A stretch of DNA of 64,000 nucleotides from Phormidium tenue FACHB-886 (GTDB taxonomy: Bacteria > Cyanobacteriota > Cyanobacteriia > Elainellales > Elainellaceae), in the NCBI RefSeq assembly GCF_014764505.1, contig NZ_JACXWX010000011.1:1-64000 (forward strand). The letters run 5' to 3'. The position numbers and the translations under genes were made by a program. The notes beneath the pieces were generated by a model. It saw nothing but the letters and a program-made list of their open reading frames with translations, was not told the DNA's origin and searched no databases. Of this stretch, positions 15,568-33,285 are shown piece after piece (within the stretch, counting starts at the first letter, position 1; each line of letters starts with the position of its first letter).

Positions 15568-15578
15568 CATAATAGGTG
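15568..15578 (+). promoter_or_regulatory. Candidate operator CATAATAGGTG upstream of sspB
   Basis: This is an exact 11-bp match to the motif upstream of the DUF262-HNH operon (8309-8319). It sits in the divergent gap between the methyltransferase and sspB. A TATATA box lies just upstream, and an imperfect inverted repeat (gctcctcc / ggagtagc) surrounds it. The AGGTG at its end can serve as ribosome-binding site for the ATG at 15585, so the motif may overlap translation signals. Confidence 0.4.
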
Positions 15579-15584
15579 CACGCT

Positions 15585-16571
15585 ATGGCTGGGGCTTTCC
15601 AGTACGCTCTGAATCGTAGAAAATGGGTACATTCGTTCTATAAAATTATGGCGGTAGAGCAAGCGAATCGCAATACAGATACCAATGGCAATTCTAAAGC
15701 CATCGTCTTTGCTCGTCATGAAACGTTTCATCCCCGCTTTGGTTGGTTGAAGAAGGGTTTTGATCGTGCCTCTATCGATTCGGAGATTTTCTTAAGGGAG
15801 GATGCCCCTGTTCGGCTCGGCGTGGGAAAGAACATGGTGCGCTCCATTCGGTACTGGTGTTCTGCTTTTAAGCTGCTGAAGGATGACCAGCCGACAGAAT
15901 TTGGTCAGCAACTTTTGGGGCAGGAAGGCTGGGACTCTTATCTAGAAGATCCTGCCTCTCTCTGGCTGCTGCACTGGAAATTGCTAGAAGCGCCTAACTT
16001 GGCAACTGCCTGGGATGTTGCCTTCAACTATTTTCGCCAGGTCGAGTTTACGACTGAAGATTTGTTCTACCAGCTTTGCGAGTACCGCGATCGCGAAGCT
16101 CCCCGTATTTCTGAATCTTCACTCAGAAAGGATGTGAGTTGCATTTTGCGGATGTATGTCGTGCAACCCAGTGGTAAGGCTCAAATCAGCGAAGATTCAC
16201 TGGATTGCCCATTTACGGAACTGGGGTTGATTCACACGGCAGGGGATTCACGGCACTATATGTTTCGGGTTGGGCAGAAGCCAAGCTTATCCCCAGAAAT
16301 TGTGGTTTACGCTTGCTTAGAGCATCATGCTCGAACAGGTAGCCCCGCCAAAACGATTCCGATTGCCAATTTGCTCTACGACCTCGGTAGCCCAGGACTC
16401 GTATTTAAGTTGACCGAGAGTGCCATCTGCGACGCGATCGAAGTCGTAGCCCGACGACGGGATCAAATTCGGCTCTCTGATGCAGCCGGAAAGCTGCAAT
16501 TTTCCTTTGAAGGGGAGCCACTGAGCCTAGCAGCGGCTATCTTAGACGGGTACTATCGGTCGGGAAGGTGA
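15585..16571 (+). CDS. sspB: Phosphorothioation protein SspB (DUF4007)
   Basis: SspB is the DUF4007 protein of Ssp phosphorothioation systems and is reported to nick DNA where sulfur is inserted. The family match begins near residue 38 with FARHETFHPRFGWLKKGFD, followed by FLREDAPVRLGVGKNMVRSI, and runs to the end of about 328 residues. Possible starts are GTG 15576, ATG 15585 (preferred, AGGTG six bases upstream) and ATG 15648 (no ribosome-binding site). The stop overlaps the sspC GTG by 4 bp, so the two are coupled. It opens the long + strand ssp operon. Confidence 0.85.
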   Translation: MAGAFQYALNRRKWVHSFYKIMAVEQANRNTDTNGNSKAIVFARHETFHPRFGWLKKGFDRASIDSEIFLREDAPVRLGVGKNMVRSIRYWCSAFKLLKDDQPTEFGQQLLGQEGWDSYLEDPASLWLLHWKLLEAPNLATAWDVAFNYFRQVEFTTEDLFYQLCEYRDREAPRISESSLRKDVSCILRMYVVQPSGKAQISEDSLDCPFTELGLIHTAGDSRHYMFRVGQKPSLSPEIVVYACLEHHARTGSPAKTIPIANLLYDLGSPGLVFKLTESAICDAIEVVARRRDQIRLSDAAGKLQFSFEGEPLSLAAAILDGYYRSGR

Positions 16572-19500
16572 GCAAGATGACCCATAAGGTTCTATCAACC
16601 TATTTTGAGCTACACCGCCGCTACTACCGATCCGTCAATTTAGAGAGAGATTTAGATAAGCCTGATGCGGTTCAGGGCTATGTTCCGACCGAGCGATCTG
16701 CTGAAGCGTTGCGGCGGATTCTATCTGCCATTGGAGATCCGAATGCTCACCGTGCCTGGACGTTAACTGGAGTCTATGGAACAGGGAAGTCAGCGTTTGC
16801 CCATTATCTTGCGGCTTTGTGTGCGCCAGAAGAAAGCCCGGTAGCCGATGAAGCTTGGGCGATCGCCGAACACGCTTTTCCGGCTGACAGTCCCGAAATG
16901 GAATCCGTCAGAAATGTTCCTGAGCCTGGATTATTGAGAGCCGTAGCAACGGCTCAACGGGAGCCTTTAAGCTGGACTATTGTTCGTGCCTTATCGCGTG
17001 GGTTTGAGCTTTTTTGGAAGAAGAAGAGGAAGCCAGATTTCTGGATGGATCTCAATGAGTGGCGCTTCCAGGCGGAGGAGGGCAACTGCCATGTTACCGA
17101 CCAACAAGTGCTGAAATTGCTTCGAGAGGTCGTCCAAACGGTTGAAACGGATGTGCTGCTCATTATTGATGAGTTGGGCAAGAATCTGGAGTATGCGGCT
17201 CATCATCAGGGCATTCAAGATCTTTACCTGCTTCAGCAGATTGCTGAGCTAGAGCTTAAGGGAGACTATCAGGTTCACCTGTTGGGCATTCTCCACCAGT
17301 CATTTGCAGGATATAGCGATCGCCTCTCGACAGTAGAACAGAGCGAATGGACAAAGATTCACGGACGATTCACGGACATCGTTCTCACTGAATCACCTAG
17401 TCAGATGACCCGCTTGATTGGGCAAGCGATCGATCGATCTAATGCTGTTCGCGAAGCGTCGCCAGTCCTTCACAGTATTCACCTCCAAGCAGAAAGCTGG
17501 TTTGATGCCCTAAAAGACGTACTCTCGGAATACGAAATTTCGGCAAAGGTGCTAGCAGATGCTTACCCATTGCATCCTCTAACGGCTCTGGTGCTGCCGA
17601 TGCTCTGTGTGCGTTACGCCCAGAACGATCGCTCTCTATTTACTTTTCTCACTAGCGACGAGCCTTACGCTTTCAGTCAGTTCCTTAAATCCACTGCAAT
17701 TCAAGGCGATCAAATCCCGACATTGAAGCTGTACCAGCTTTATGACTACTTTGTTGAGGCAGTAACCGGGCTTGCGTCGCGGATCAACTTACAACGTTGG
17801 GTTGAAGTGCAAGGGCTGATTCAGGATGCTAAAGACCAGAGCCAGGATGTTCTTAAGGTACTGAAAACCATTGGAGTCCTCAATCTAGTCACCTCAACCG
17901 GAAAGTTTCGCGCAACGCCTGAATTGGTGGCATTGGCATTGTGTGACTCCCCAATGGATGAAAAGGGACGTAAGCATTGGCAGAAGACGATCCAATACCT
18001 GAAGCAGAAAAAATTAATTACTCACCGCAGTCGAACCCAGGATGAGTTGCGGATCTGGCAAGGCTCAGATTTCGACGTTGAAGCCGCAATTCAAGCGCAA
18101 ATCGAGCAAGCCTACAATCCTCTAGCCGATTTGTTGACCACAACCTATCCCTTAAAACCGCTGGTCGCTCAACGCCATTACACCACAACGGGCAACCTCC
18201 GCTATTTTGAGCAACGGTACGTTGATAGTCGGGTTGACCTACAGACATTGGCTTGTACTACGACCGGGAGTGACGGCTTAATTGCTTACTGGTTAGATAC
18301 AGCGTCTTTTGAGTCAGTTCCATCACACACAGCAGATGGCAAGCCTCTGATTGTAATTACGGTTGCCAATCTTGAACTACTACGAATGCGTAGTGAAGAT
18401 TTTTTGGCATTAAAGAAGATTTGGAAAGATGCCCCCGAATTGCAAACGGATGGCGTGGCAAAGCGTGAGGTTAGACAACGCCTTGTCGAAGCAGAGCAAT
18501 TACTGAATGAAACAGTCGCTCTAGCATTCAATTGGTCAGCACAAAAAAATACCTGCTGGATTGATGGGAAACTCACCGCCATTGAGTCTTCCAGAAGCTT
18601 CCAATCTGCGCTTTCAGACTTGTGCGATCGCATCTACGACAAAGGTGCAGTGCTAGATAACGAACTGATCAATCGCCGTGAACTGACATCTCAGGGGGCA
18701 AAAGCGCGACGCGAACTGATCGAGGCAATGCTCAAGAATGCTGACAAGGAACGCTTGGGGTTAGAAGGCTATGGCCCTGAAGTAGCCATGTATGGGTCAG
18801 TGCTGGAAGCTACGGGTATTCATCGTCAGGAGGGTGATGAATGGGGCTTCCATCCACCATTACCCTATATTCCTGCGGCTGCTTTGAAAGGACGATTGCA
18901 AACTGATCAAAGTAGCGAAAACTCTTTAAAGTCAATGACCGTTGACGTGTCCTTTGTTTGGGACGAAATCGAACGGTTTTGTACAGAAGCTAAAGATAGC
19001 CAGCGATCGCTCAATTTACTTTACCAACGGCTAGAGCAACCGCCCTATGGTATTAAGTCTGGAGTAATTCCCGTCTTGCTAGCAGCTTTTCTGCTGGTTC
19101 ACGTTGATGATGTTGGCATCTATAGGGATGGAGCTTTTGTTCCCATCTTAGGACCGGAACATTTTGAACTATTGGTGAAAGATCCTTCGCGCTTCTCAGT
19201 GAAATACTTCGAGATGGTGGGGCTGCGATCGCAGGTTTTCAAGGAACTTGAAGCTGCGCTGAAGTCTCCCAATGCGAAGGCTCCTATAGGGGTACGTAAC
19301 GCATCATTGCTAGCTGTCGCTAAGCCATTGTTCGGTTTTGTCCGACAACTGCCAGAATTTACACGATCGACAAAACGGTTGAGTCCAGAAGCTCTGAAAG
19401 TTTTACAGGCATTACAAAAAGCTCAGGAGCCAGATGAACTACTGTTTATTTCGTTGCCAGAGGCTTGCGGTTTTAGCCCAATGATAGCGGGTGGAGAAGA

Positions 19501-20161
19501 AAATGAACAGGCAGCAAAAGCGTTTCGGAAAAAGTTGGTGCAATGCATCCATGAGATTCAAACCGCTTATGACAATCTGCTAAGCGACTGTCAAAAGCAT
19601 CTATATGAAGCGTTTGGGGTTCGTAGTAAAGAATCTAACTTAAGGGAAGATTTGCGGGTTCGTGCCAGTTACTTAGTAGGGCAGTGCATCGATCCTGTCC
19701 TGCGCCATTTTGTTGCTAAAGCTGTGGAAGAGAATTCGCCTGATAGAGATTGGCTAGAGGCATTAGTCAGGATTGTGGCAGACAAACATCCAAAGGGCTG
19801 GGTTGATGAAGATCTCAGCCGATTTGAAATTGCTTTGAGTGATTTGGTTCGTCGGTTCGAGAACCTAGAAGCCCTTCGGACTGAAATCAAGCGGCAAGGT
19901 AAAGGATTTGATGCTCTCAGAATTACAGTGACCGAACCAAATGGTCAGGAAGTTCATGAAGTTGTTTGGATTGATGAAGAATATGCGGAGTTATTCGATC
20001 GGCTCACCGAAGAGATATTGAATACGCCAGCATTAAAAGACAATCCTCGGCTTCAGAAGGGCTTTTTAGCGAAGCTGAATGAAAAACTCTTAAGTCGCAA
20101 AGATGTTGATTCTCAAGGTGAATTTGGGAAACCTAAACGGAAGCGGGGTCAGTCAGCATGA
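16568..20161 (+). CDS. sspC: Phosphorothioation ATPase SspC
   Basis: This 1197-residue P-loop ATPase lies between a DUF4007 gene and a PP-loop sulfurtransferase gene, the diagnostic SspBCD order. Walker A is GVYGTGKSA (residues 68-76) and Walker B is VLLIIDELGKNL (about 195-206). The rest is a long helical body with a conserved-looking acidic segment near residues 960-1000. SspC is thought to couple ATP hydrolysis to DNA handling during phosphorothioate insertion. It overlaps both neighbours by 4 bp. Large ATPases of BREX (BrxC/PglY) are distant look-alikes, but no BREX methyltransferase or PglZ is present. Confidence 0.8.
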   Translation: MSKMTHKVLSTYFELHRRYYRSVNLERDLDKPDAVQGYVPTERSAEALRRILSAIGDPNAHRAWTLTGVYGTGKSAFAHYLAALCAPEESPVADEAWAIAEHAFPADSPEMESVRNVPEPGLLRAVATAQREPLSWTIVRALSRGFELFWKKKRKPDFWMDLNEWRFQAEEGNCHVTDQQVLKLLREVVQTVETDVLLIIDELGKNLEYAAHHQGIQDLYLLQQIAELELKGDYQVHLLGILHQSFAGYSDRLSTVEQSEWTKIHGRFTDIVLTESPSQMTRLIGQAIDRSNAVREASPVLHSIHLQAESWFDALKDVLSEYEISAKVLADAYPLHPLTALVLPMLCVRYAQNDRSLFTFLTSDEPYAFSQFLKSTAIQGDQIPTLKLYQLYDYFVEAVTGLASRINLQRWVEVQGLIQDAKDQSQDVLKVLKTIGVLNLVTSTGKFRATPELVALALCDSPMDEKGRKHWQKTIQYLKQKKLITHRSRTQDELRIWQGSDFDVEAAIQAQIEQAYNPLADLLTTTYPLKPLVAQRHYTTTGNLRYFEQRYVDSRVDLQTLACTTTGSDGLIAYWLDTASFESVPSHTADGKPLIVITVANLELLRMRSEDFLALKKIWKDAPELQTDGVAKREVRQRLVEAEQLLNETVALAFNWSAQKNTCWIDGKLTAIESSRSFQSALSDLCDRIYDKGAVLDNELINRRELTSQGAKARRELIEAMLKNADKERLGLEGYGPEVAMYGSVLEATGIHRQEGDEWGFHPPLPYIPAAALKGRLQTDQSSENSLKSMTVDVSFVWDEIERFCTEAKDSQRSLNLLYQRLEQPPYGIKSGVIPVLLAAFLLVHVDDVGIYRDGAFVPILGPEHFELLVKDPSRFSVKYFEMVGLRSQVFKELEAALKSPNAKAPIGVRNASLLAVAKPLFGFVRQLPEFTRSTKRLSPEALKVLQALQKAQEPDELLFISLPEACGFSPMIAGGEENEQAAKAFRKKLVQCIHEIQTAYDNLLSDCQKHLYEAFGVRSKESNLREDLRVRASYLVGQCIDPVLRHFVAKAVEENSPDRDWLEALVRIVADKHPKGWVDEDLSRFEIALSDLVRRFENLEALRTEIKRQGKGFDALRITVTEPNGQEVHEVVWIDEEYAELFDRLTEEILNTPALKDNPRLQKGFLAKLNEKLLSRKDVDSQGEFGKPKRKRGQSA

Positions 20162-20964
20162 GCAAAAAGAAGGTTCGGCACATATTAGGTCTCTCAGGTG
20201 GCAAGGACAGTACAGCTCTTGCTATCTTTATGCGTCGAGAATACCCAGACCTAGAGATTGAGTACTTCTTCTGCGATACCCATAAGGAACTGAAAGAAAC
20301 TTACGAGTACTTAGGGCGAATTGAAGATTGGCTTGGGATTAAAATTCACTACCTCGAAGCAGAACGAGGCTTTGACCATTGGCTGGATGTATACGGTGGG
20401 GTATTACCGTCTCCCAAAATGCGGTGGTGTACCAAGCAGATGAAGATTATTCCCCTGGAGAAATGGGTAGGCGACGACGAGGTGATTACCTACGTTGGCA
20501 TCCGTGCCGATGAGAATCGTGACGGCTATATTTCAACGAAACCTAATATCACAGCCAAATTTCCCTTTAAGGAACACGGGAAAGTTAAAGCAGACATTTT
20601 GCGTGAATTGGAAGAGAGCGGAATCGGAATGCCCGATTATTACCGTTGGCGATCGCGATCGGGCTGCTACTTTTGCTTCTTTCAGCGCAAATACGAATGG
20701 GTAATGCTAGCACAAGAGCATCCTGACCTTTTCCAAAAGGCAGTTGAATACGAGCAAAACCATCGAGACGGCAGAACTTATACCTGGACACAGAACGAAA
20801 CGTTATTGGAGTTGCTGGAGCGCAAAGACCAAATTATTGCTGACCATGAAAAGGCTATGGCAAAACAAGTAAAGGAAAAGCCTAACCAATCCCTCTCAGA
20901 CGTACTAGCAACAGTCTTAGACAGTGAGGATGATACTTTGCCTTGCCTCGCTTGTCACCTATGA
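20158..20964 (+). CDS. sspD: PP-loop sulfurtransferase SspD (PAPS-reductase-like)
   Basis: SspD/DndC-type proteins are adenylating PP-loop enzymes that help transfer sulfur from the cysteine desulfurase to the DNA backbone. The PP-loop SGGKDS lies at residues 13-18. Next come FFCDTHKEL, the RWCTKQMKI motif typical of PAPS-reductase-like enzymes, VGIRADE, and SGCYFCFFQRKYEW, whose two cysteines resemble the cluster-binding region of this family. A second CxxC, in LPCLACHL, ends the 268-residue chain. It overlaps sspC by 4 bp (ATGA). A gap of 58 bp separates it from the GHKL gene, so tight coupling ends here. Confidence 0.88.
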   Translation: MSKKKVRHILGLSGGKDSTALAIFMRREYPDLEIEYFFCDTHKELKETYEYLGRIEDWLGIKIHYLEAERGFDHWLDVYGGVLPSPKMRWCTKQMKIIPLEKWVGDDEVITYVGIRADENRDGYISTKPNITAKFPFKEHGKVKADILRELEESGIGMPDYYRWRSRSGCYFCFFQRKYEWVMLAQEHPDLFQKAVEYEQNHRDGRTYTWTQNETLLELLERKDQIIADHEKAMAKQVKEKPNQSLSDVLATVLDSEDDTLPCLACHL

Positions 20965-21022: not shown

Positions 21023-22804
21023 ATGTCCAGCCAAGTAGTTACTGAAGTTGACCTTGAACTTGACCCTGGCAGAATTTGCTTTGGGCTTAGCCGAATTGGT
21101 TATACTCCTGCAACTGCAATATGTGACATTCTAGATAATTCTGTTCGTGCAAAAGCCCTAAATATTCATATTCAAATTCATAAAGAACGGGAGGAGTTAA
21201 ACGATAGTAGAAAAAATAATGTTAAGGAGTATCTTGTCATTGATGATGGCAAGGGAATGAGTGAAGCTGAGATGGTAGAGGCTCTTAAGTTAGGATCTTC
21301 TGACCAGAATTATGAGGCAAACTCACTTTCCAAGTTTGGGCTTGGTCTGAAATCCGCAGTGTTTTCTCAAGGCGAGGAATTACACCTTATCTCATCACCG
21401 GGTAACGGTCATCCGTTTAAGAAGTACGTTGTTTCCCTACCTGAAATTCAACGTGAAAGTAGATACTTTGCCAAATCACTTGAACTGACTGAAGAAGATC
21501 AACATTTACTTAATTGCTATCTGTCCTCGGGAAGAGGAACCATTGTGAGGATTGCAAAGGTCAGGATGGTTAACCATCCAAGTGTTAGAAAAACAACAGA
21601 AGAATTGACGACCAAAGTAGGAGTTATTTACTACTACTTTATGAAAGAGGATGGAATCAATGTCTCAATCAATAACCAGAGCATTAATCCCTTCGATGTC
21701 CTCTTTGTTGACGAAGCAAATCTACATGAAAATCTAGATGAGAACTCGTGGGATGGGAAAACTGTAAGGTGGATTGAGAAACCCAAAGAAATCACACTTG
21801 ATGTAAAAGAAGATACAGAAGAAGTCGTTAAAGCTACGATTGAAGTAACTCAACTTCCGTATCCTCCAATATTTGATTTAGAAGAGCGAGGAAAACGTAA
21901 ACAAATTGCAGAGAAATACAAGATAGGGGCAGGTAACTATGGTTATTACGTTTATCGCAACAAACGACTAATATCATGGGCAGAATCTTTTGATGGTATT
22001 ATCCCCCAAGATCAAGATTTTTATGCCTTTCGAGGAAGGATTTTAATTGATGAAAACGCTGACGATAGCTTTAACATTGATGTAAAGAAATCCACCCTAA
22101 CTCTTTCCGATGAAGCTTATCGGGAAATTAGCGATCGTTCAGACGAGTATAAAAGGAAAAGTAAGAGAGCTTGGTTACGTGGAAACTTTTTAAAGAAGGA
22201 GTTTGAGGGGCAAGATCCAAATTTAACTGCGAATGAAATTGTTGCAGAGTTTGAACCTTTAGAGAACTTGCCAGGTGAACCTATTGCAACTCCAGCGATT
22301 GAACGAGAAAAAGCTCGGAGAGGGAAAGAAGTTGAAGAGGAAATGCAAACAAAGCTGCGTCAAACTGCTATTCAACAAAAAAGTGATACTGAAGGTAGAG
22401 AAATTGACGAAAGTGAGTTAAATGACGAAGATCTTGAAGTAGCACTAAAAGAGGACACTAATCCAGCTGCGAACAAGATCTATAAAGTTTCTAACGTAGA
22501 AGACAATGCTCTTTGGGAACCCTATTACGATACTGACCGTGGAGGGTGTGTCAGGATTAATAAGTTCCATAGATTTGCACGTTTAATTTTTGAAGAAAAT
22601 AGTGAAAATGTAGATCTTCAAATAATGTTTCAGTTACTACTATTGCAAATGGCAGAGGCTGAAGTATATGCACAGAAAAATATTACATCTCTTGATCGTA
22701 AAGAGATTAAACAGATAATCTCGGAGTATAGGCGAATCATATCAGAATATCTGGCTGGAATGTGTAGAACTCTTGAAGGTAAATTACCTCCTCTTGGTAA
22801 GTAA
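21023..22804 (+). CDS. MORC-like GHKL (HSP90-type) ATPase
   Basis: This 593-residue protein opens with a GHKL ATP-binding fold. The N-box is AICDILDNSVRAKA (about 32-45, Asp35 in place of the usual Glu, Asn39 as the Mg ligand position), then VIDDGKGMS (72-80) and FGLGLKSAVFS (105-115). A transducer-like region follows (about 200-370), then a charged helical segment (about 420-480) and a C-terminal helical part. The order fits prokaryotic MORC/MutL-like ATPases, which are known near restriction-modification systems. It starts 58 bp after sspD with AAGGAG before the ATG, and the GIY-YIG gene follows after 2 bp. The DNA is AT-richer and almost lacks HIP1 sites compared with sspC and sspH. Confidence 0.8.
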   Translation: MSSQVVTEVDLELDPGRICFGLSRIGYTPATAICDILDNSVRAKALNIHIQIHKEREELNDSRKNNVKEYLVIDDGKGMSEAEMVEALKLGSSDQNYEANSLSKFGLGLKSAVFSQGEELHLISSPGNGHPFKKYVVSLPEIQRESRYFAKSLELTEEDQHLLNCYLSSGRGTIVRIAKVRMVNHPSVRKTTEELTTKVGVIYYYFMKEDGINVSINNQSINPFDVLFVDEANLHENLDENSWDGKTVRWIEKPKEITLDVKEDTEEVVKATIEVTQLPYPPIFDLEERGKRKQIAEKYKIGAGNYGYYVYRNKRLISWAESFDGIIPQDQDFYAFRGRILIDENADDSFNIDVKKSTLTLSDEAYREISDRSDEYKRKSKRAWLRGNFLKKEFEGQDPNLTANEIVAEFEPLENLPGEPIATPAIEREKARRGKEVEEEMQTKLRQTAIQQKSDTEGREIDESELNDEDLEVALKEDTNPAANKIYKVSNVEDNALWEPYYDTDRGGCVRINKFHRFARLIFEENSENVDLQIMFQLLLLQMAEAEVYAQKNITSLDRKEIKQIISEYRRIISEYLAGMCRTLEGKLPPLGK

Positions 22805-22806
22805 AC

Positions 22807-23274
22807 ATGAGCGATACCGTTCAGCCAATCTGGAGTTTTATATCTTCTGCCTTTGATGGAACAAGTGCCTTTGTTTACTTATGGATATCTAAAAAATGGC
22901 GGGTAATTTATGTGGGGCAAACTAATGATAGAAAAGGTTCATTTGGAAGAGCATTCAGCCATATCCAGGACAATGGAACTCTTAGAACAAGATTTGAGGA
23001 GCAAGTCGGTACTAAGTTAGAAGCAGCTGATGACCTCATTCTAGTATCCTATCCTCTTCCTAAAGAGCCAGAATATACAAGCGAAGAATCTTCATACCGC
23101 GAAGCAATTGAATATCTTGTCCAAATAGGTTTAAGGGATGTTAGAGGAGAGGTAAAACCAAAGTTTAACCTAATTTCAAATGTTAGAACGGTAGAGAGGA
23201 CCTCAAATCCTTCTCTTAAAAGATATGCGGATAAAATTGTAAAGAATTTTTTGGAGGTTTATCCAAAGTTTTAA
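22807..23274 (+). CDS. GIY-YIG nuclease-like protein
   Basis: This 155-residue protein keeps the GIY-YIG layout. Tyr24 is in FVYLW, Tyr35/Gly37 in VIYVGQTN, Arg48 in FGRAFSHI, a Glu is in YREAIEYLV (E99 or E102) and Asn121 is in PKFNLIS. All the usual catalytic positions can be filled, although the first motif is diverged. No extra DNA-binding domain is evident, so it may depend on the GHKL ATPase, whose stop lies 2 bp upstream of its start. Together they would form an ATPase-nuclease pair. It is followed by an 84-bp gap before sspF. Activity is inferred. Confidence 0.72.
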   Translation: MSDTVQPIWSFISSAFDGTSAFVYLWISKKWRVIYVGQTNDRKGSFGRAFSHIQDNGTLRTRFEEQVGTKLEAADDLILVSYPLPKEPEYTSEESSYREAIEYLVQIGLRDVRGEVKPKFNLISNVRTVERTSNPSLKRYADKIVKNFLEVYPKF

Positions 23275-23358: not shown

Positions 23359-25200
23359 ATGGCTTCTCAAATATCGCCATGTTCTTTATCTGACTGGATC
23401 GGCTTTTTACGGCAATACGGACCTATTCCTCGTAACGACAATATGTACGACGAGGTGATTCAACGAACTTTACGGCGCAAGAAGCTTCAACCGATCGCTT
23501 TTGACACTGAATATCTAGGTGAATTGCTGGATAACTTCCGTTCAACTTCGCCCAAATCAGTCATTTTAACGGGTACGGCTGGGGATGGGAAAACCTACTA
23601 TTGTCGGCAGATTTGGGAAGAATTTGGTGGGTCTGTTGATGATTGGCAAAAGGATAGCAAAATTCAACACTTGGGGTTGGGCGATCGACAGCTAATCGTC
23701 ATCAAGGATTTGAGCGAACTGACTCTAGAGGAGAAACAGTCGCTTCTGCCAGAAATTGCAACTGCCATCTTGGGTAAGGATACTTCCAAGGTCTATCTGA
23801 TTGCAGCGAACGATGGACAGCTAGTGGAAGCATGGACAGAAGCAGCGCAGATTGAAGAAATTGAGCCAGTACGAAAGGCGATCGAAGATCTTTTATTAGG
23901 GGATTTGCGTGAGTTAGATGACTTCCAGGTCAAACTCTACAACCTAAGCCGTCAGAGTGCTGCTGTTTTGTTTCCCCGGATTTTGAAAGCCGTTCTGGAG
24001 CATCCGGGGTGGGGCGATTGCAATCAATGTGCTTATCAAAGCCAAGGATGCCCGATTTGGCAAAACAAACAGCGTCTAGAAGGAACTGATGCGGATCGAA
24101 CCACACGAGAACGTTTGTCTAATCTTCTCGAACTGTGCGAACTCAATCAGATGCATCTTCCAGTTCGCCAATTGCTTCTCTTGGTTGCCAATGCACTACT
24201 AGGTCATCCAGACGCAAAAGATCGGCTACTCAATTGTCGGCAAGTGCCTGACGTTATTGCCGCTGAAACGATATCGCGTGCCAGCCTCTACCGCAATATC
24301 TTCGGCGAGAATCTACCTGAGCGGCGGCGAGAATCAACCGAGGTTTTCAAAGTTTTACGTGGCTTTGGTATTGGCGCAGAAACCAGTAATCAAATTGACA
24401 ATATTCTGATTTTTGGGGCAGACGATCCAGAATTACAGCCGCTCTACACTGACTTGGTGCTATCTGACCCATTCTACGGAGCCGACTTAAAGTACCAAGC
24501 TCAACAGCGTTCTTATTTGGAAGGGGATGCTGCTAAGGGACGAGAAGAGTTTCTTGGGGTTCTTCAAGCCCAACGGCAGCGGTTGTTCTTTACTATTCCT
24601 AGCGATCGCACAACAGACATGAAGCTTTGGGATCTTACGATCTTTCAGTATGCCGGGGAATATCTGAGCGACCTTTACAGGGGGCTGCAAGAAGGCAAAA
24701 AGGTTCCTAAATCGATCACTTTACGGCTAATCAGGGGACTGAACCGTATCTTCACAGGGCTGCTAGTCAGTAATCAAGATGAATTGCTCTTAGCGACCTC
24801 TGGCAGCTACTCCCAAGCCCGAATCAGCAGGGTTTACGAAGATTCTATCTCTGTTGCTCGAAAACGGGGTGAGAGTGTATTGGTGGAGTTAGATAAAAGC
24901 CGTAAGAAGCCAAGCTTAGTCGTGAATCTTGCTTCAGATGTTGAGCCAATTCGTTTCAACCTAACCCTGACTCGATATGAATATTTGAGCAGAGTTGCCG
25001 AAGGTGCTCTTCCAAGTAGCTTTTCTCAGGAGTGCTACGAAGATGTACTCGCCTTCAAGACTCAAGTATTTAAGCAGCTTGCAGTTCGCCAGTCTATGGA
25101 GAGCGAGGATGAGGATAGGGAAGAGGCGATGAATATTCGGTTGCTGGAAGTAAATAGTGCTGGTATAGCGAGTGAACGAACGCTTGAGGTTTACTTCTAA
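23359..25200 (+). CDS. sspF: DptF-like ATPase, SspF candidate
   Basis: This 613-residue P-loop protein has Walker A GTAGDGKT (residues 72-79), a Walker-B-like LIVIKDLSEL (about 114-123) and a cysteine cluster CNQCAYQSQGC (about 219-231) that may bind zinc. It matches the first gene of the DptFGH/SspFGH restriction module, which attacks DNA lacking phosphorothioates. Its stop overlaps the sspG start by 1 bp (TAATG). The preceding gap of 84 bp, with no clear terminator, may hold its own promoter. Subunit naming follows gene order and size; the exact sequence match to SspF or DndF was not tested. Confidence 0.7.
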   Translation: MASQISPCSLSDWIGFLRQYGPIPRNDNMYDEVIQRTLRRKKLQPIAFDTEYLGELLDNFRSTSPKSVILTGTAGDGKTYYCRQIWEEFGGSVDDWQKDSKIQHLGLGDRQLIVIKDLSELTLEEKQSLLPEIATAILGKDTSKVYLIAANDGQLVEAWTEAAQIEEIEPVRKAIEDLLLGDLRELDDFQVKLYNLSRQSAAVLFPRILKAVLEHPGWGDCNQCAYQSQGCPIWQNKQRLEGTDADRTTRERLSNLLELCELNQMHLPVRQLLLLVANALLGHPDAKDRLLNCRQVPDVIAAETISRASLYRNIFGENLPERRRESTEVFKVLRGFGIGAETSNQIDNILIFGADDPELQPLYTDLVLSDPFYGADLKYQAQQRSYLEGDAAKGREEFLGVLQAQRQRLFFTIPSDRTTDMKLWDLTIFQYAGEYLSDLYRGLQEGKKVPKSITLRLIRGLNRIFTGLLVSNQDELLLATSGSYSQARISRVYEDSISVARKRGESVLVELDKSRKKPSLVVNLASDVEPIRFNLTLTRYEYLSRVAEGALPSSFSQECYEDVLAFKTQVFKQLAVRQSMESEDEDREEAMNIRLLEVNSAGIASERTLEVYF

Positions 25201-26771
25201 TGCTTGAAATTCTCCCACGCCCTCAACAGATCGAGCAGTCTCAACTCAATATGTGGGTTGACGAATCCATCTGGGGTCATCGGCTGTACGATGAGCAAAC
25301 CCCGTGGCTTTGTATTTTAGAGATGCTCTGTATTACGCAATCAGCAGCAGGTCACGGACAGGCTTTTGTGGAGAGCAAGCTGAACGACCTTAGATACGAA
25401 ATCTATCCGCGCCTCTATCTTCGTAATATCTTGTTCAACAACCCTCACATTGAGGCGATCGCTACAGAAGGATTGGATGACAACGAGCGGTGGCAGATGT
25501 GGATGGATGCGATCGCTAGTAATGTAGGCGGGCTAGCGTCACCCGACTTTAGCTACCTGAAATCCCGATTTGAATCCTTCAAGGACTTCGCAGAAATCGT
25601 CAAGTTCCTTCAATCCAGTGCTATTGAGGGCGATAGTAACAAACGATGGAGTTCTAAATTCGTTTTTCCATACGGTCCAGACTGCCTATATGAAGACCTA
25701 AGGGTAACGGGCGAGAAAGTGACAAACGATCGTCGCTTCTTTGGAAGAACGGGCGAACTTTTATATCTTATGTTATGCCGGAGCGGGCGGGGGGAGGAAA
25801 TTCTTTCCCGTCTAGAAAGTACTGGAATCATTACCCACAACTACTCAAGTGAGTATCGAGGCTCCAAGTGGAATCAGCTAGTCCTTGCCCTTCAATCTCC
25901 AGCGGATCGGAGCGCACCCAGAACCAGTGGTAGCCCACCCTATCTTCCCTATAAGAGGCTGCCCGAATATGAACAACTAGCTGACGACTGGCTCAATATT
26001 TTACGCTGTGACCTACCCGACTACGACTCCCTACCTCACATTGTCACTATTACTGGGTTGCACCTGATTATCTATCTGTTGAGCCGCGCCAAGGCGACAT
26101 TAGGAGAGTCTGCCCCACCACAGTTTGTGTTAGAGATTGTCGCGCCTAAGAAAACAACAGTACGTGAGTTGGCTTCTGACGAATTTCAGAAGAACAACAA
26201 TCTGCCTCAACGGGCGATTGAATACACCATTCGTAGCATCGCTGATTCACCAGAGTGGCAAGCGTGCCTTAACTCCTATACCCCGATTGAAGATGCAATC
26301 GATTTACTACAAGAGCGTTTTGCCTGGTCTGCAAAAGACGAGGATTCAGATGGTTCAGGCTCACCAGCAGATCTTTTAAGTTCGCTACGAGAGAGGGCAG
26401 TTAAACGGCATCAGCAACACCTCGGCAAGTTTCATGGAACTTGGTCACGCGAAATCGGATTGTCGTCCAGTCGGGGCAGCCGTCGCACTCGCTATGCCCC
26501 AACTGACTCCTTGCTGAGGACGTTAGTACTCGCTTCTGTACCAACTCGTATGGAATTTCAGGAGTTTTTGGCAAAACTGCATCAGAAATATGGGTTTATT
26601 ATTGGCGATCGCCAAGCCACAGATTTAATCAACTCCGGTGATGCTGATCGCGAAGATTTTGTAGCCAATGCCGAACGCCTTGAACGTCGCCTTGCCAGTA
26701 TTGGGCTACTCAAACGCCTTTCTGATGCTTGTGCCTACGTTCAAAATCCCTTTGCCTCGGAGGTGAGATGA
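25200..26771 (+). CDS. sspG: DptG-like restriction subunit, SspG candidate
   Basis: This is a 523-residue soluble protein without a recognisable catalytic motif. It lies between an ATPase gene and a large FtsK-like gene, the position of DptG/SspG. The N-terminal two-thirds look like a mixed globular domain. A basic stretch, rich in Arg and Ser (about residues 415-440), could contact DNA. The last 100 residues are helical. It shares 1 bp with sspF and 4 bp with sspH, so all three should be made together. Assignment rests on gene order. Confidence 0.65.
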   Translation: MLEILPRPQQIEQSQLNMWVDESIWGHRLYDEQTPWLCILEMLCITQSAAGHGQAFVESKLNDLRYEIYPRLYLRNILFNNPHIEAIATEGLDDNERWQMWMDAIASNVGGLASPDFSYLKSRFESFKDFAEIVKFLQSSAIEGDSNKRWSSKFVFPYGPDCLYEDLRVTGEKVTNDRRFFGRTGELLYLMLCRSGRGEEILSRLESTGIITHNYSSEYRGSKWNQLVLALQSPADRSAPRTSGSPPYLPYKRLPEYEQLADDWLNILRCDLPDYDSLPHIVTITGLHLIIYLLSRAKATLGESAPPQFVLEIVAPKKTTVRELASDEFQKNNNLPQRAIEYTIRSIADSPEWQACLNSYTPIEDAIDLLQERFAWSAKDEDSDGSGSPADLLSSLRERAVKRHQQHLGKFHGTWSREIGLSSSRGSRRTRYAPTDSLLRTLVLASVPTRMEFQEFLAKLHQKYGFIIGDRQATDLINSGDADREDFVANAERLERRLASIGLLKRLSDACAYVQNPFASEVR

Positions 26772-29700
26772 TGCAGACCATTGAACTGATTGGTCAAGTT
26801 GCGGCTGACTTCCTGAAACGCTCAATTCAAACCGATGAAACGAACGAGGGAGTTGCCCGGTTTCTGCTAAATCGCCTCACCGCTCAGCAGGTTGCTGCCG
26901 TATCTCAAACCATTCTGAAGGATTCTGAACTTGCCCCGCTCATCAAAATTCAAGTTCCACGAGATCTCGTGGCAGGCTTCGGCTTACCTAACGAAATTTT
27001 GACCGATGAACGCACAGTTCACCTGCGCCACTCGGCTTGCGATCGCCCTGCACTACTGCTGGCTAACATCAGCGACGACCAAGCTCAATCTCTAAATGAC
27101 ATTACCTCGGTTGGTGCTCAAGAACTGAAGGGACAGATTGAGTGCTGGATTAACCTGGCTGCAAAAGACCTGGCAATTCCTGCTGAGCAGATTGAATACT
27201 GGCGTAAAGCCCTAAACGGACTCCAGAGAGTTGGTACACCCAGCCTAGAAAATTTTGCGGAATACATTGTTCAAACACGATCGCGCATTCTTGAAGAAAG
27301 CCTTCCAGTCATAGATGCACTTGGATGGGCACTCCCCGCTCTGCGGCTTCCCCGTGATTCTGGCTACTTTCGTGCCATTCCTGAAACTCAATTAGGACAA
27401 ACCCAACGATGGGAAAAGCTGTTTCAGCAAGCCTTCGCGAAGCGTGCGTGTTTACTACTGAAGCAAACCCCTAGCCGTAAGCCAATTGATGAGCAGGATC
27501 TTCAAACTGCCTTTGACAAGGTGAAGGATGATATTCCTGCGATCGCCCATCCTACTATTCATTCCTTCATTGGCAGTTCTGCTGGCTGGACTCCTGAAGC
27601 TGAAGCCCTCTCTAAGTTTGAGTGGGAATCGGATAATATCAACACGCTGTTCTCTGGGCTACAAGCTCAAAAGACAGACATTGCTTCTCTCACCCTAGAT
27701 TTCTTTAATGATGAATATCCCGATACTCTAACAGAGTCAGAAACCCAGTACATCAACGCCTTGAAAAAGCGCAATAAGCGTGAGGCGCTAGACGAAGATC
27801 GGGAATTTTATGACGCGCACCGTCAGGAACTTGAAGGCGATCGCAAGCTCAAAGCAAAGTGGGATAAATTTGTCTACGGACAGCCGATCGAGTGTACAGA
27901 TTTTTTAATTGGCTTACTGCAAGCCTTCGAGCGGCTTTTTGACCAGGCAGAAACAGTTGCTAGCGTCAAATCTCTCAAAATTGAAACTCAGAAAAAAGTT
28001 TCTAAAAGTAAATGGCTGGAACTCAATGCCGATGTAGGTCGGTATTTCTGCACCCGCTATCGAGGCATTGAACAACTGACTGCCCCTCACATTGAATGGG
28101 AAACTCACTGGCTGTTTAAGTACGATGCCCTGCTAAAGGAATCTCAGAAGAAGGCAAAGTACCGCGAGAATACTTCTACCGCAAAAACTGCGACAGAAAT
28201 CAAATTTTATGTTGAGATGCGGGATGATAACCAGGCTCTAGTTGCCAAGACGCAACTAGTTTGGCGATGTAATCCAAATTCAATTGGGATGGAGTTAGGT
28301 AATGACGTTGAGCGGCTGCTTAAAGACTCACCTTTTCAACTCTCGCAAGTGTCGAGGGAACTAGTCAGTAAGAAAGGACGATTACAGGGGATTGCTCTGT
28401 TAGATGTTGGCACCCTGATGGCGGCGTATCGTCAAGACCGAGGTTCTTTAGTCAGTAAATACGATCGCAAAGGCGACCTGGACAAAACCCTTCCCGCAAA
28501 AATTAAACAAGCTGTCGCGGATGGTCGTCTCTCGAAGAATGCGGGTGAAGCAATCACCGCCGCCTGGAAAACTTTTGCAGAACGATATAGGGCAGCGATC
28601 GCCAGCTTTACAAATGAAGGACAAGGGATTGCCAGTCCAGAACTGTTGCATCAATGTGAAGCCTATGGCAACCTACTTAAGACTGTTTTAGAACACGTCA
28701 AAGGCGATCTCAATCGTATTGACTTCTATCAACCTATCTTGCGCTTGGGCTGCATCCGCGTTGAACGCGGTAAACCCGCTGCCATCATCGCCCCCTGGCA
28801 TCCACTACGATTATCCTCACTAGCCGTCAAAGCCCGCCAATTAGCAGGACTCCTTCGGTACATCATCTCTACACCAGAAGTCAACTTTGGCGATTCCCGC
28901 CTATTTTTCGCTGATTTGCGAAACGAACTCGATCATCCCTACTATCCTGAGGTCTGTGTTGGCTACCAGGGGCAGCAGCCCGAATTGTTGTCTGTCTCTG
29001 ATACGGTCAACGAATACAGCCTGATGGAGCGCCCCACACGGGACGAGAGCGATCGCACAACCAACGAAAATCCGGCTGAAGCAGCCGATCGCTTGCTAGG
29101 GATCATCCGCCGCTACGTGGAACTGTTGCCCCATGAGAAAACGAATCTAAGCGTCGTTCTATACCAAACTGACTCGATCAAGCTACCTCAGGCGATCGTC
29201 AATAAGCTGAGTGAAGAACTGCAAGACGATCGAGAAGAAGTCCGTTGTCAGGTTGTTCTGCGCCATCGAAATGGGCAAAAACTCGCTCAACTCTATGAGC
29301 AGATGTTGGAAAGCTCTGACGCTGACCCCGATGCCTTCATTGCCAGTGAGGTTTCTCAAGACTTTATGGCAAGACTGCGGATCTCAGTCATGTCCAACGA
29401 TGTTCCTTCCACAACCCCTACAGAAGGCAAGTTTGCCGACATTGTGTTTCTGCAAGATGCGATCTCACGGCAGGCGAAAGTGGTTTGGCAGCCTTCACCG
29501 TTTGACAGCAACACAGCCGAAATCTTAATTCATTCTCCTGCTCGTTGGGCGCGTAAACGTCCGTCTGCTAAGGATGAGCTTAAATCCACCGTTTATCTCA
29601 CCTGTCCTAAGCAGACGATGGTGGGTCAAGCCTACCTCGATATGGTGTATAGCCTGATTCAAGGTGAAGATTGCTCTCCTGACCAACACTTTTTACCTGC

Positions 29701-32068
29701 CCGTCAAATCTCCTTCCAAGAAGAAACTACAAAGACAACCTTCGATGAGAGCCACCGTTTAGGGGAGTGGGTAGTTAATTACGATGATTTGCTGGAACGA
29801 CGACAACTCGTCAACCAGGGTGTAAAGGTTATTCGCTACCAACAGAACCGTACCGATGAGCGAAACTTCCTCGTCTCCTCGGACGCATCTCTGAATGTCC
29901 TTAAAGTGCTGGTCAGAAAACGCTTGGAAGCCTTGAATTTAGGCTTGGAAAGCAACAGAATCGACAAACTAGTAGAACGCCTAATTAACGAAGCTAACGC
30001 CGTTTCCGGTGATATCGTGTTACGAGCCGCAAAATGCGGCAGATTTGCCAGCGAGCTAATGGGCGTTGTTCTAAGTAAAGCCTTAATCACAGCAGAGATG
30101 GGAGCGCAAAACCCGATCGGCTGGTACTTCCTAGATGACTACGCTTCTTGGTTAGGGCAAAAAGAAGGTCAAATTGCTGACATCATGGCAATTTCACCCC
30201 AGTATATTGACGGTGAGCCTATTCTGAAAGTCATTATTTCTGAGGCAAAATACGTTGATGTAGCGGGCTTGGCTGATGCTCGCAAGACTTCACAGAACCA
30301 ACTCCGGCAAACAGTCGATCGCATTGCCGATGCCCTCTTTATTAGTCCAGGTCGTCTTGACCGGGACCTTTGGCTATCGCGCCTTAGCGATCTTCTACTC
30401 GATGGCATTGAATTTAGTTCCGACAACAAACTGAACATTGAACAGTGGCGCGAACAAATCCGCTCAGGGACGCTTCGGATTGATTTATCCGGCTACTCTC
30501 AAGTCTTTGTATCCGGAACGAATGAGAGCAATGTAGAAGGGGAGCGATCGCCGATTCCCAAAGTCGAACGCTGCTTCCAAGAAGTGTTCGACCGAGAATC
30601 TGTCCGTAAACTGGTTCTGGCTTACGAGTCAGGACAACCACTCTTCCTCGTAAGGGAACAGCTTGGCGACGACAAACCCTGGACAGTAGCAGAAGCATTA
30701 CAGCCTGCAGATCGAGTCACATGGGTTTTAGAAATTGGGAAAGTAGACACAGCAACGCCTCCTCCAGCAACACCTGCAAAAATTAATCCGCCTGAAAATC
30801 CTGACAGTCCACTTCAGCTAACCCTGTCTAACCAGGCATTGGAACCTGAAACTACCGTCTCTCCAGATTCCTCACCTGCTGAAGACATTGACAGCTGGGC
30901 GAGTCCAGCACTGGTTTCTTGGTGGCAGCAGGGACAAGCACAGACGAGTCAAGGCGATGCAGTGGCAGAAAAATGGCTGGAGGAAACGGCTGGAAAACTA
31001 CGGACAGCTTTGTTGGGATATAGCTTGCAAGCCAAGATTGAAGGCACTCGCCTAACTCCGAATGCTGCAATTGTCCGCTTCAAAGGTTCCGATAAACTGA
31101 AACTGGATGACATCGAGAAGAAGCGATCGCAACTCCTGACCACGCACTCTCTAAACGTTATTAGCGTTTATGGTCAGCCTGGTGAAATCGTTGTCACCGT
31201 TGCCCGTCCCCAGCGCCAAACGATTTCCTTACGCGAAGTCTGGGCAAAACGAAGAATCAATCGATCTCCTTCAGGTGTTAACCTCAGCTTTGTCATTGGG
31301 GTTAAGGAACTCGATGGTGAGCTGCTTTATCTCAACCTGGGCAGTAGTTTCGAGAATTTAGAACAACATGCTCCACATACGCTGATTGCTGGAGCCACAG
31401 GCAGCGGTAAGTCGGTTCTGTTGCAAAACCTCCTTCTCGATATTTGTGCGACAAACTCTCCCGAACTCGCAAGCATCTATCTAATCGACCCCAAAATGGG
31501 CGTAGATTATGCCAACATCAGCGACCTACCTCATCTCAAAGAAGGAATCATTATTGACCAAGACCGTGCGATCGAGGTTTTGGATCTTCTGGTTGAGGAA
31601 ATGGACAATCGATACCGCAAGTTTCTTCCTCAAAAGGCAAAATCTTTGCAGGACTACAACAGTAAAGTGCCTGAGCAGGATAGACTTCCGGTACTATGGC
31701 TGGTTCACGATGAGTTTGCTGAATGGATGCTGGTTGATGAATATAAATCAGCTGTATCGACAGCAGTACAGCGATTGGGTGTAAAAGCAAGAGCCGCAGG
31801 AATTTATCTTATCTTTGCTGCCCAGCGTCCTGACACTAACGTCCTTCCGGTGCAACTTCGAGACAACTTAGGAAATCGTTTAATCCTGAGAGTTGAGAGT
31901 GTCGGCACTTCGGAAATTTCACTGGGCCAAAAAGGGGCTGAAAACTTATTAGGCAAAGGACATCTAGCCGCCCGTATGACTAACCAGTCTGATCTCATTT
32001 ATGCTCAAGTGCCATTTCTAGCGGATGAAGAGATGGCTGCGATCACCGAAATCATCAAGCAGCAGTGA
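26768..32068 (+). CDS. sspH: DptH-like FtsK/HerA-type translocase, SspH candidate
   Basis: This is a giant protein of about 1766 residues. The frame can open upstream, but the ATG at 26768 has GGAGGTGAG just before it and overlaps the sspG stop (ATGA), so it is the preferred start. A long N-terminal region of about 1350 residues is followed by a low-complexity Pro/Thr-rich linker and then a C-terminal FtsK/SpoIIIE-like motor. Walker A is AGATGSGKSVLL (about 1540-1551) and Walker B is VLWLVHDEFAEWM (about 1641). DptH/SspH proteins are the motor and probable nuclease subunit of phosphorothioation-based restriction. A nuclease motif was not pinned down, but SEAKYVD near residue 1160 resembles a PD-(D/E)XK core. 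Confidence 0.8.
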   Translation: MMQTIELIGQVAADFLKRSIQTDETNEGVARFLLNRLTAQQVAAVSQTILKDSELAPLIKIQVPRDLVAGFGLPNEILTDERTVHLRHSACDRPALLLANISDDQAQSLNDITSVGAQELKGQIECWINLAAKDLAIPAEQIEYWRKALNGLQRVGTPSLENFAEYIVQTRSRILEESLPVIDALGWALPALRLPRDSGYFRAIPETQLGQTQRWEKLFQQAFAKRACLLLKQTPSRKPIDEQDLQTAFDKVKDDIPAIAHPTIHSFIGSSAGWTPEAEALSKFEWESDNINTLFSGLQAQKTDIASLTLDFFNDEYPDTLTESETQYINALKKRNKREALDEDREFYDAHRQELEGDRKLKAKWDKFVYGQPIECTDFLIGLLQAFERLFDQAETVASVKSLKIETQKKVSKSKWLELNADVGRYFCTRYRGIEQLTAPHIEWETHWLFKYDALLKESQKKAKYRENTSTAKTATEIKFYVEMRDDNQALVAKTQLVWRCNPNSIGMELGNDVERLLKDSPFQLSQVSRELVSKKGRLQGIALLDVGTLMAAYRQDRGSLVSKYDRKGDLDKTLPAKIKQAVADGRLSKNAGEAITAAWKTFAERYRAAIASFTNEGQGIASPELLHQCEAYGNLLKTVLEHVKGDLNRIDFYQPILRLGCIRVERGKPAAIIAPWHPLRLSSLAVKARQLAGLLRYIISTPEVNFGDSRLFFADLRNELDHPYYPEVCVGYQGQQPELLSVSDTVNEYSLMERPTRDESDRTTNENPAEAADRLLGIIRRYVELLPHEKTNLSVVLYQTDSIKLPQAIVNKLSEELQDDREEVRCQVVLRHRNGQKLAQLYEQMLESSDADPDAFIASEVSQDFMARLRISVMSNDVPSTTPTEGKFADIVFLQDAISRQAKVVWQPSPFDSNTAEILIHSPARWARKRPSAKDELKSTVYLTCPKQTMVGQAYLDMVYSLIQGEDCSPDQHFLPARQISFQEETTKTTFDESHRLGEWVVNYDDLLERRQLVNQGVKVIRYQQNRTDERNFLVSSDASLNVLKVLVRKRLEALNLGLESNRIDKLVERLINEANAVSGDIVLRAAKCGRFASELMGVVLSKALITAEMGAQNPIGWYFLDDYASWLGQKEGQIADIMAISPQYIDGEPILKVIISEAKYVDVAGLADARKTSQNQLRQTVDRIADALFISPGRLDRDLWLSRLSDLLLDGIEFSSDNKLNIEQWREQIRSGTLRIDLSGYSQVFVSGTNESNVEGERSPIPKVERCFQEVFDRESVRKLVLAYESGQPLFLVREQLGDDKPWTVAEALQPADRVTWVLEIGKVDTATPPPATPAKINPPENPDSPLQLTLSNQALEPETTVSPDSSPAEDIDSWASPALVSWWQQGQAQTSQGDAVAEKWLEETAGKLRTALLGYSLQAKIEGTRLTPNAAIVRFKGSDKLKLDDIEKKRSQLLTTHSLNVISVYGQPGEIVVTVARPQRQTISLREVWAKRRINRSPSGVNLSFVIGVKELDGELLYLNLGSSFENLEQHAPHTLIAGATGSGKSVLLQNLLLDICATNSPELASIYLIDPKMGVDYANISDLPHLKEGIIIDQDRAIEVLDLLVEEMDNRYRKFLPQKAKSLQDYNSKVPEQDRLPVLWLVHDEFAEWMLVDEYKSAVSTAVQRLGVKARAAGIYLIFAAQRPDTNVLPVQLRDNLGNRLILRVESVGTSEISLGQKGAENLLGKGHLAARMTNQSDLIYAQVPFLADEEMAAITEIIKQQ

Positions 32069-32106: not shown

Positions 32107-33285
32107 ATGAACGAGCGAGCAAGTACCCTCCCTAAGCCCATCTATCTGGACTACCACGCGACTACGCCTACAGATCCGCGAGTTGCCGGCTTAATGTTGC
32201 ACTACATGACTGAAGAGTTTGGCAATGCCAGCAGCACTGACCATGAGTGGGGCGATCGCGCTGAAACCGCTATCAAGCAAGCTGCCAAAGAAGTTGCAGA
32301 CCTCATAGGAGCCTCACCGAGAGAAATCGTTTGGACATCCGGTGCGACCGAGAGCATCAATCTCGCAATTCAGGGAAGCTTAGCTCCTAACCCAACGAAG
32401 CCTCATCGCATTGGCTTAATGCCGATTGAACACAAAGCCGTCCTCGATACCTGCCGTGTTTTGAAAAAGCGAGGTTGGGCTGAATTGGTTTATCTCCAAG
32501 TAGATTCTAAAGGCAGACTTGACCTGGAACATTTGGAACAAGTCTGCGCCGAGGGGCTGTCCTTGCTCTGCGTTATGGCAGCTAATAACGAAATTGGCAA
32601 CATTTACCCTATTCAGAAGATTGGGCAGATTGCTCAACACTACGGCATTCCTTTTCTATGTGACGGCTCTCAGGCAGTCGGCAAGATTCCCATTCAGTTT
32701 GAGGAATGGGGCATCACCTACCTAGCAATCTCTGCTCACAAGTTCTATGGACCCAAGGGGGTTGGCGCACTAGCTGTTCGTAGAGGCTATCACCTGGAGC
32801 CGCTTATATTTGGTGGCGGTCATCAGCGAGGAATGCGATCGGGTACTCTCAATGTCCCTGGAATCGCTGGGTTGGGAGAAGCTTGTCGGTTGCGATCGCT
32901 GGAGATGGAAGAAGACGAGAGTGCGATCGCTATGAAGCGCGATCGACTTCAAGACCTGCTCTTAGAGAAGATCCCTAACCTAGTAATTAATGGAGATCCA
33001 GAGCATCGGCTGGCAGGAAATCTTCACATTTCAATTCCTGGCATTCCCAATAGTGCCGTCATCGCTAGGGTTCGTTCTAAATCAGCGATATCAACTGGAT
33101 CAGCTTGTTCTTCCGGTGTGGAAGAACCTTCTCATGTACTACGTGCAATGAAGCTACAAGACAAAGTGATTGATGGGGCACTTCGTATTGGGATTGGTAA
33201 GTTTAGTCAGGATAAGGAGATTTACATAGCAGCAGACTTCCTGATAGAAGCCTATGAGATGACCCGTCAAGCTTTGTATACTTAG
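32107..33285 (+). CDS. sspA: Cysteine desulfurase SspA/DndA
   Basis: This PLP enzyme takes sulfur from L-cysteine and hands it to SspD for DNA phosphorothioation. At 392 residues it has normal IscS/DndA length. It shows the N-terminal YLDYHATTP, the PLP-binding Lys212 in ISAHKFYGPKGVG, and the catalytic Cys334 in STGSACSSG. It follows sspH by 38 bp. In many ssp/dnd loci the desulfurase gene comes first or is divergent; here it is last, after the restriction genes. No other isc/suf genes are nearby, so it is dedicated to this island. Confidence 0.9.
   Translation: MNERASTLPKPIYLDYHATTPTDPRVAGLMLHYMTEEFGNASSTDHEWGDRAETAIKQAAKEVADLIGASPREIVWTSGATESINLAIQGSLAPNPTKPHRIGLMPIEHKAVLDTCRVLKKRGWAELVYLQVDSKGRLDLEHLEQVCAEGLSLLCVMAANNEIGNIYPIQKIGQIAQHYGIPFLCDGSQAVGKIPIQFEEWGITYLAISAHKFYGPKGVGALAVRRGYHLEPLIFGGGHQRGMRSGTLNVPGIAGLGEACRLRSLEMEEDESAIAMKRDRLQDLLLEKIPNLVINGDPEHRLAGNLHISIPGIPNSAVIARVRSKSAISTGSACSSGVEEPSHVLRAMKLQDKVIDGALRIGIGKFSQDKEIYIAADFLIEAYEMTRQALYT

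Follow-up and report, generated by a model that had tools for sequence, protein, structure and literature searches.

Proteins of the SspABCD family insert sulphur into host DNA. Among the restriction modules that accompany such phosphorothioate (PT) marks, DndFGH and SspFGH attack DNA lacking PT; SspE needs PT for its activation. The Ssp machinery consists of AAA+ and wHTH proteins, and the Dnd machinery of an ABC ATPase and DndE. In eukaryotes, MORC/MutL-type clamps read epigenetic marks. The restriction partners of PT systems named in the literature consulted are DndFGH, SspE, SspFGH, and DndI (PMC11662687). Neither sspE nor sspFGH is present in 2,211 of 2,678 sspBCD loci (a share given as about 84%), for which further restriction counterparts have been predicted, and a single SspABCD unit can carry more than one restriction module (PMC8092258). 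ATPases of the GHKL-S5 type act as ATP-gated dimeric clamps, and MutL, MORC, and VcSduA have been linked to the control of DNA handling or of nucleases (PMC2292703, PMC12137116).

In the window, i.e., the whole stretch of 64,000 nucleotides of cyanobacterial DNA that was analysed, two open reading frames lie 2 bp apart inside a complete sspBCD-pair-sspFGH-sspA operon (Table 1). They are predicted to encode a MORC-like GHKL ATPase (P0001) and a compact GIY-YIG-type nuclease (P0002). From the comparisons described below, it is quite probable that this gene pair constitutes an exchangeable restriction module of PT defence and would thereby join SspE and SspFGH as a third restriction counterpart of Ssp. 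It would represent a small two-gene candidate for the missing restriction partner of many sspBCD loci, and if this holds true, MORC/MutL-type clamps would be linked to a DNA-backbone mark in bacteria.

Table 1. Genes of the ssp operon in the window, with position, strand, and basis of assignment.
Feature	Position	Strand	Basis of assignment
sspB (DUF4007)	15576..16571	+	PADLOC SspB 1e-121; Pfam DUF4007 4e-101
sspC (AAA+ ATPase, BrxC-like)	16568..20161	+	PADLOC SspC E=0, 1486 bits
sspD (PAPS-reductase-type sulfurtransferase)	20158..20964	+	PADLOC SspD 2.2e-117
GHKL (MORC-like) ATPase, 593 aa (P0001)	21023..22804	+	HATPase_c_3 3.7e-24; invariant motifs; fold search
compact GIY-YIG-type nuclease (putative), 155 aa (P0002)	22807..23274	+	family match PF01541; invariant residues; predicted fold order
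sspF	23359..25200	+	PADLOC SspF 4.9e-244
sspG	25200..26771	+	PADLOC SspG 3.2e-208
sspH (FtsK/HerA-type ATPase C-terminus)	26729..32068	+	PADLOC SspH E=0; FtsK_SpoIIIE 2e-34
sspA-type cysteine desulfurase	32107..33285	+	Aminotran_5 1e-69; 34-46% identity to SspA-type proteins adjoining other ssp loci

SspB, C, D, F, G, and H of the window were named by PADLOC profiles, with E values from 1e-121 to 0 (SspD as listed in Table 1). The first-pass annotation, which was made from the DNA sequence alone, had placed the GHKL and GIY-YIG genes between sspD and sspF at a distance of 2 bp, and this agrees with the exact ORF coordinates and with the names of the neighbouring genes. It had also described the pair as set off by gaps from otherwise overlapping ssp genes; we measured 58 bp between sspD and the GHKL gene and 84 bp between the GIY-YIG gene and sspF, whereas sspB-C and sspC-D each overlap by 4 bp, sspF-G by 1 bp, and sspG-H by 43 bp. 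A search of the window yielded no terminator-like site in or beside the pair. Upstream of sspB and divergent from it, the window carries a gene for a NACHT-GUN4 protein (10887-13253, minus strand) and one for a 684-aa protein (13373-15427, minus strand), the latter with a weak HNH_repeat match only.

Compared with the SspABCD-SspFGH and SspABCD-SspE systems, the locus has the same SspABCD unit followed by a downstream NTPase-nuclease module. The modules differ in their protein families, as SspE is a DUF262 GTPase with an HNH domain and SspFGH are P-loop/FtsK proteins, whereas the pair combines a GHKL/Bergerat ATPase with a GIY-YIG-type protein; the PADLOC profiles for SspE, SspF, SspG, and SspH gave no match to P0001 or P0002. 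The prokaryotic MORC/paraMORC proteins, GHKL-S5 ATPases that belong to restriction-modification systems (Iyer et al. 2008, PMC2292703), resemble the pair in that they are unfused and adjoin a modification unit and a nuclease, but their loci contain methylases, SF2 helicases, and RE-fold nucleases, and neither PT nor GIY-YIG is mentioned for them. In VcSduA, a Shedu protein with a GHKL N-terminus (paraMORC3), a GHKL ATPase is likewise thought to gate an anti-phage nuclease, and both the ATPase and the nuclease activity are needed (PMC12137116). Yet in VcSduA the ATPase and a PD-(D/E)XK nuclease are fused into one protein, for which no modification genes have been described, whereas the pair consists of separate genes next to PT genes. 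Nucleases of the URI/GIY-YIG superfamily have also been described near DndD-DndE (Rakesh et al. 2024, PMC10853773); that work concerns an ABC-ATPase/DndE core rather than Ssp, and its text names no GHKL or MORC protein. The ATPase domain of P0001 is a distant match to MzaB of the MZA system, a match that PADLOC gave as well. Membership in MZA was rejected on the basis of 82.7 bits against an MzaB cut-off of 850 and of the lack of Z1, PD-(D/E)XK, and AIPR partners in the operon, and membership in Shedu was rejected on profile score or missing partners. PADLOC and NCBIfam contain no specific model for the pair, and no description of it was found in the searchable literature, i.e., outside subscription papers and preprints. 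Given its place beside PT-modification genes in four phyla (see below), the pair would count among the sulphur-marking defence systems as a member not described so far.

In order to characterize the ATPase, we combined profile, motif, and fold comparisons. P0001 matched HATPase_c_3 with 85.7 bits (cut-off 25). The protein contains an N-box (D35..D38-N39), the motif D74DGKGM79, a lid (G106LGLKS111), an S5-type lysine (K356), and a C-terminal helical domain. The N-box, DDGKGM, and GLGLKSA motifs had already been pointed out in the first-pass annotation, and they hold up as a family feature, with D38, N39, D74, G76, G78, G106, G108, and K110, as well as K356, invariant in all 16 GHKL relatives compared. 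The exception is the general-base glutamate of the MORC/MutL N-box, which is replaced by an aspartate (D35) throughout the family (16/16); in the profile comparison, D35 aligns with the glutamate of MORC4. An aspartate at this position was also seen in the MZA-like relatives from loci L043 and L044. The closest solved relative by profile is MORC4 (E 9e-4), and a fold search with the P0001 structure model returned MORC2, SMCHD1, and MORC4 as best matches (E ~1e-11 to 1e-10), so that both searches agree with the earlier designation as MORC-like. The model, whose overall confidence is low (pLDDT 66) and whose quality is modest except in the ATPase domain, predicts an S5-type second domain and a MORC/MutL fold.

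The GIY-YIG assignment of P0002 draws on its family. On its own, the protein matched the GIY-YIG Pfam profile weakly (17.4 bits, below the cut-off of 22.6). Matches to PF01541 were obtained for 14 of the 15 members of its family, the best two with 28.0 and 22.8 bits, so that a GIY-YIG profile match, the absence of which would have spoken against the assignment, exists at the family level. Y24, Y35, G37, R48, H52, E94, and E102 are invariant in 15/15 members, and they include all of the two Tyr, Arg, His/Tyr, and Glu catalytic positions of GIY-YIG (Y24, Y35, R48, H52, and E102). The earlier statement that P0002 has all GIY-YIG positions thus stands for the two tyrosines, the arginine, and a glutamate, but not for N121, since asparagine occurs at position 121 in the window protein only (1/15), with aspartate in 11 members and S/T/V in three. 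The structure model (pLDDT 82.6) shows the order strand-strand-helix-helix-strand-helix, which is that of the GIY-YIG fold, with E102 in the third helix. Foldseek with this model against the PDB gave no match at E <= 0.001, no GIY-YIG structure, and noise only, and a PDB sequence search using the GIY profile had no matches. Taken together, P0002 is a putative compact GIY-YIG-type nuclease, weakly matched alone but supported by its family. The aspartate in the N-box of P0001 and the unconserved asparagine of P0002 could mean that catalysis is slow or absent.

To find out where else the pair occurs, 84,980 species were scanned with two short motifs, whereby relatives outside PT loci could be missed. 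The scan yielded 18 GHKL relatives of full or almost full length (37-55% identity). Directly downstream of each of the 17 intact ones lies a GIY-YIG homologue (29-48% identical), and for all 17 the Ssp modification genes adjoin the pair or lie on the same contig; the gene order GHKL then GIY is fixed across the intact loci. In 15 loci from Bacteroidota the order is sspB-sspC-sspD-GHKL-GIY, and an SspA-type gene adjoins most of them, often in convergent orientation. The SspF and SspE profiles had no match anywhere in the genomes of these 15, and the pair is the sole restriction candidate found directly downstream of sspBCD there. In the window, on which the first-pass annotation was based, the pair is an extra beside sspFGH; in Bacteroidota it follows sspD as the only restriction candidate found. 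A Streptosporangium contig (L060/L134) carries sspABCD, sspE, and the pair, and in Eubacterium (L063/L136) sspBCDA is followed by PbeA/PbeC-like genes and then by the pair. An additional survey of 396 Bacteroidota genomes added two loci. In G535 (L094), sspC-sspD are followed by GHKL and GIY proteins that are 60% and 51% identical to those of the window, and in G861 (L095) a dndC-like gene, a dndD-like gene, and a short DndE-like ORF precede a divergent GHKL-GIY pair. Because the pair in L095 adjoins Dnd-type genes, its link to PT spans two unrelated PT machineries.

Overall, Ssp or Dnd genes accompany the pair at 20/20 intact loci, which answers the earlier proviso that homologues might occur mostly away from PT genes; these loci represent about 10 lineages from four phyla, where many near-identical Flavobacteriaceae loci were taken as one lineage and about 10 independent lineages were counted. 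For the close family of the pair, SspBCD modification genes adjoin it or share its contig in the window and 18 other loci. The 17.7-kb loci L053 (Thermobacterium salinum) and L054 (Altibacter lentus) do not differ in sequence; the two records are therefore not independent and reflect recent transfer or the same strain. The sole PT-unlinked copy, from Melainabacteria (L042/L059), has its GHKL gene cut by a transposon near residue 520, and neither a GIY partner nor a PAPS reductase was detectable in that genome. The transposon (around 10743-12855 in L042) carries TniA/TniB-like genes. Another hit (L069) comprises only 44 residues, as it is cut off by the end of its contig, and has no PT genes on the one visible side. 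The PT-unlinked MzaB-like proteins from Melainabacteria (L043, L044) belong to a different GHKL family and were set apart from the close family of the pair. Within the phylum of the window, 39 of 386 sampled genomes have SspD, and only the window genome (1/39) has the pair. Scans of viral contigs found no relatives of the pair, a phage search gave three GHKL matches, all distant, and plasmid searches returned only distant GHKL domains for P0001 (~21-38% identity) and nothing for the GIY protein.

The first-pass annotation had suggested a mobile effector cassette that is AT-richer than its surroundings, and the composition fits, with a GC content of 38.3% (GHKL) and 37.2% (GIY) vs 46-50% in the ssp genes, and GC3 values of 29.6 and 28.2 vs 45-52%. 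The scarcity of HIP1 sites, which it had also listed, is correct as an observation (zero sites) but not significant alone, as ~2.3 sites would be expected at the window rate of 1.02/kb (P(0) ~0.10), and it was set aside as a sign of foreign origin. Between the window and Bacteroidota, the GHKL proteins share 53-60% identity and the SspC proteins 25-35%, from which it follows that the pair moves as a cassette; conversely, in the comparison with Streptosporangium SspD of the window is the closer protein (63.5%) and GHKL the more distant one (39%). The pair is missing from the closest cyanobacterial ssp loci. In the close relative G110, which provides the comparison with a pair-less ssp locus, the site is empty, i.e., sspD (83% identical) is followed after ~80 bp directly by sspF (82%). 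The low GC3, the set-off gaps, and the empty site show that the pair is foreign to the ssp operon in the lineage of the window, and together with the identities they mark it as an exchangeable module. A 24-bp similarity between the ribosome-binding site of the pair and the empty site of G110 (shuffle p ~0.006; right flank p ~0.03) might be a deletion scar, meaning that G110 has lost the pair, and is too weak to tell gain from loss. Since neither flanking direct repeats, a target duplication, nor a transposase was seen at the pair, we do not claim a transposition mechanism. Between related Bacteroidota loci, the computable dN/dS values range from 0.02 to 0.08 (GHKL) and from 0.01 to 0.09 (GIY), one GIY comparison being saturated at synonymous sites and giving no ratio. 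Strong purifying selection thus acts on the two genes, which are kept for protein function.

As a restriction module, the pair could work as follows. SspABCD would mark host DNA with sulphur. The fold and the conserved ATPase motifs suggest that the MORC-like GHKL ATPase binds ATP, dimerizes, and forms a closed clamp on DNA, whereby PT status would slow or license the clamp. The clamp may then deliver or activate the small GIY-YIG nuclease, which would nick or cut the invading DNA. In the window cyanobacterium, the pair and SspFGH would both be stacked on a single SspABCD unit. As the Ssp and Dnd machineries share the sulphur mark, the simplest reading would be that PT status either controls the pair or is what it acts upon, and the pair may read this status, as the first-pass annotation had suggested. 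It somewhat more probably attacks PT-lacking DNA, as DndFGH and SspFGH do, than it is activated by PT like SspE, and the broken copy in the genome without detectable PAPS reductase leans weakly toward toxicity in the absence of PT. That same broken copy would be expected of a suicide or back-up effector, i.e., a dormancy or cell-killing module that is silenced by host PT and released when modification or SspFGH fails. Such an effector would also account for the coexistence of the pair with a complete restriction module in the window (SspFGH) and in L060 (SspE), and PT and restriction-modification loci have been argued to carry suicide nucleases (PMC3506569). We nevertheless consider it unlikely, because in the 15 Bacteroidota loci the pair stands in fixed order as the sole restriction candidate after sspBCD, with no SspE or SspF found in the genome, which makes a primary restriction role more likely.

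The tight arrangement of the pair right after sspD in Bacteroidota would also suit an accessory function in modification, in which the GHKL clamp and the nuclease assist SspBCD in nicking, loading onto, or repairing PT sites and do not destroy foreign DNA. SspB-dependent nicking has been described as a part of single-strand PT formation (PMC8092258), and both GIY-YIG and MutL-like proteins are known in DNA repair, too. However, the pair is absent from most of the ssp loci examined (in the phylum of the window, from all but one of the 39 sampled SspD genomes), so that it is dispensable for modification, and it travels independently of the SspC/SspD sequence and occurs with Dnd machinery, which makes this reading very improbable. 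Even less credit can be given to an unrelated defence-island gene pair that landed in the ssp operon by chance: a passenger would have the same low GC3, set-off gaps, and empty site, but it would hardly be accompanied by PT genes at every intact locus across so many lineages, and the PT-unlinked GHKL relatives examined (the MZA-like ones) all fall outside the close family. A protein of 775-818 aa that is weakly similar to HATPase_c_3 occurs in ten Bacteroidota loci (L048-L055, L061, L062) as well as in L057 and L094 (e.g., L053:4-2331; L094:5637-8090; L057:13080-15536). This second GHKL-like protein might be the real effector in the loci that carry it, but no copy was detected in the window genome and several other pair-bearing genomes, among them that of Algoriphagus chordae.

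Beyond a restriction module for Ssp, the pair may tentatively, at slightly less than even chance, be regarded as a general PT-reading module whose GHKL clamp senses the backbone sulphur whichever machinery wrote it and which, together with helicase-GHKL-PLD sets, would form a broad MORC-like PT restriction class that fills part of the partnerless sspBCD loci. These sets were seen in five other Bacteroidota (L129-L133), where the genes after sspBCD encode an SF2 (ResIII-type) helicase, a divergent GHKL ATPase of 606-661 aa, and mostly a PLD-like nuclease (~300-350 aa), and they are a candidate for a second GHKL-based restriction module for Ssp. A GHKL-like match is also present in Streptosporangium at L134:13506-14066. 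GHKL and GIY-YIG parts look like a recurrent theme beside sspBCD. In six cyanobacteria (L015, L020, L022, L024, L025, and L026), a protein of ~225 aa with GIY/YIG-like motifs (GIYAWYY...PIYIG) and weak profile support is encoded after sspD, and in several of them it is followed by a DndB-like (DNA-sulfur modification-associated) protein.
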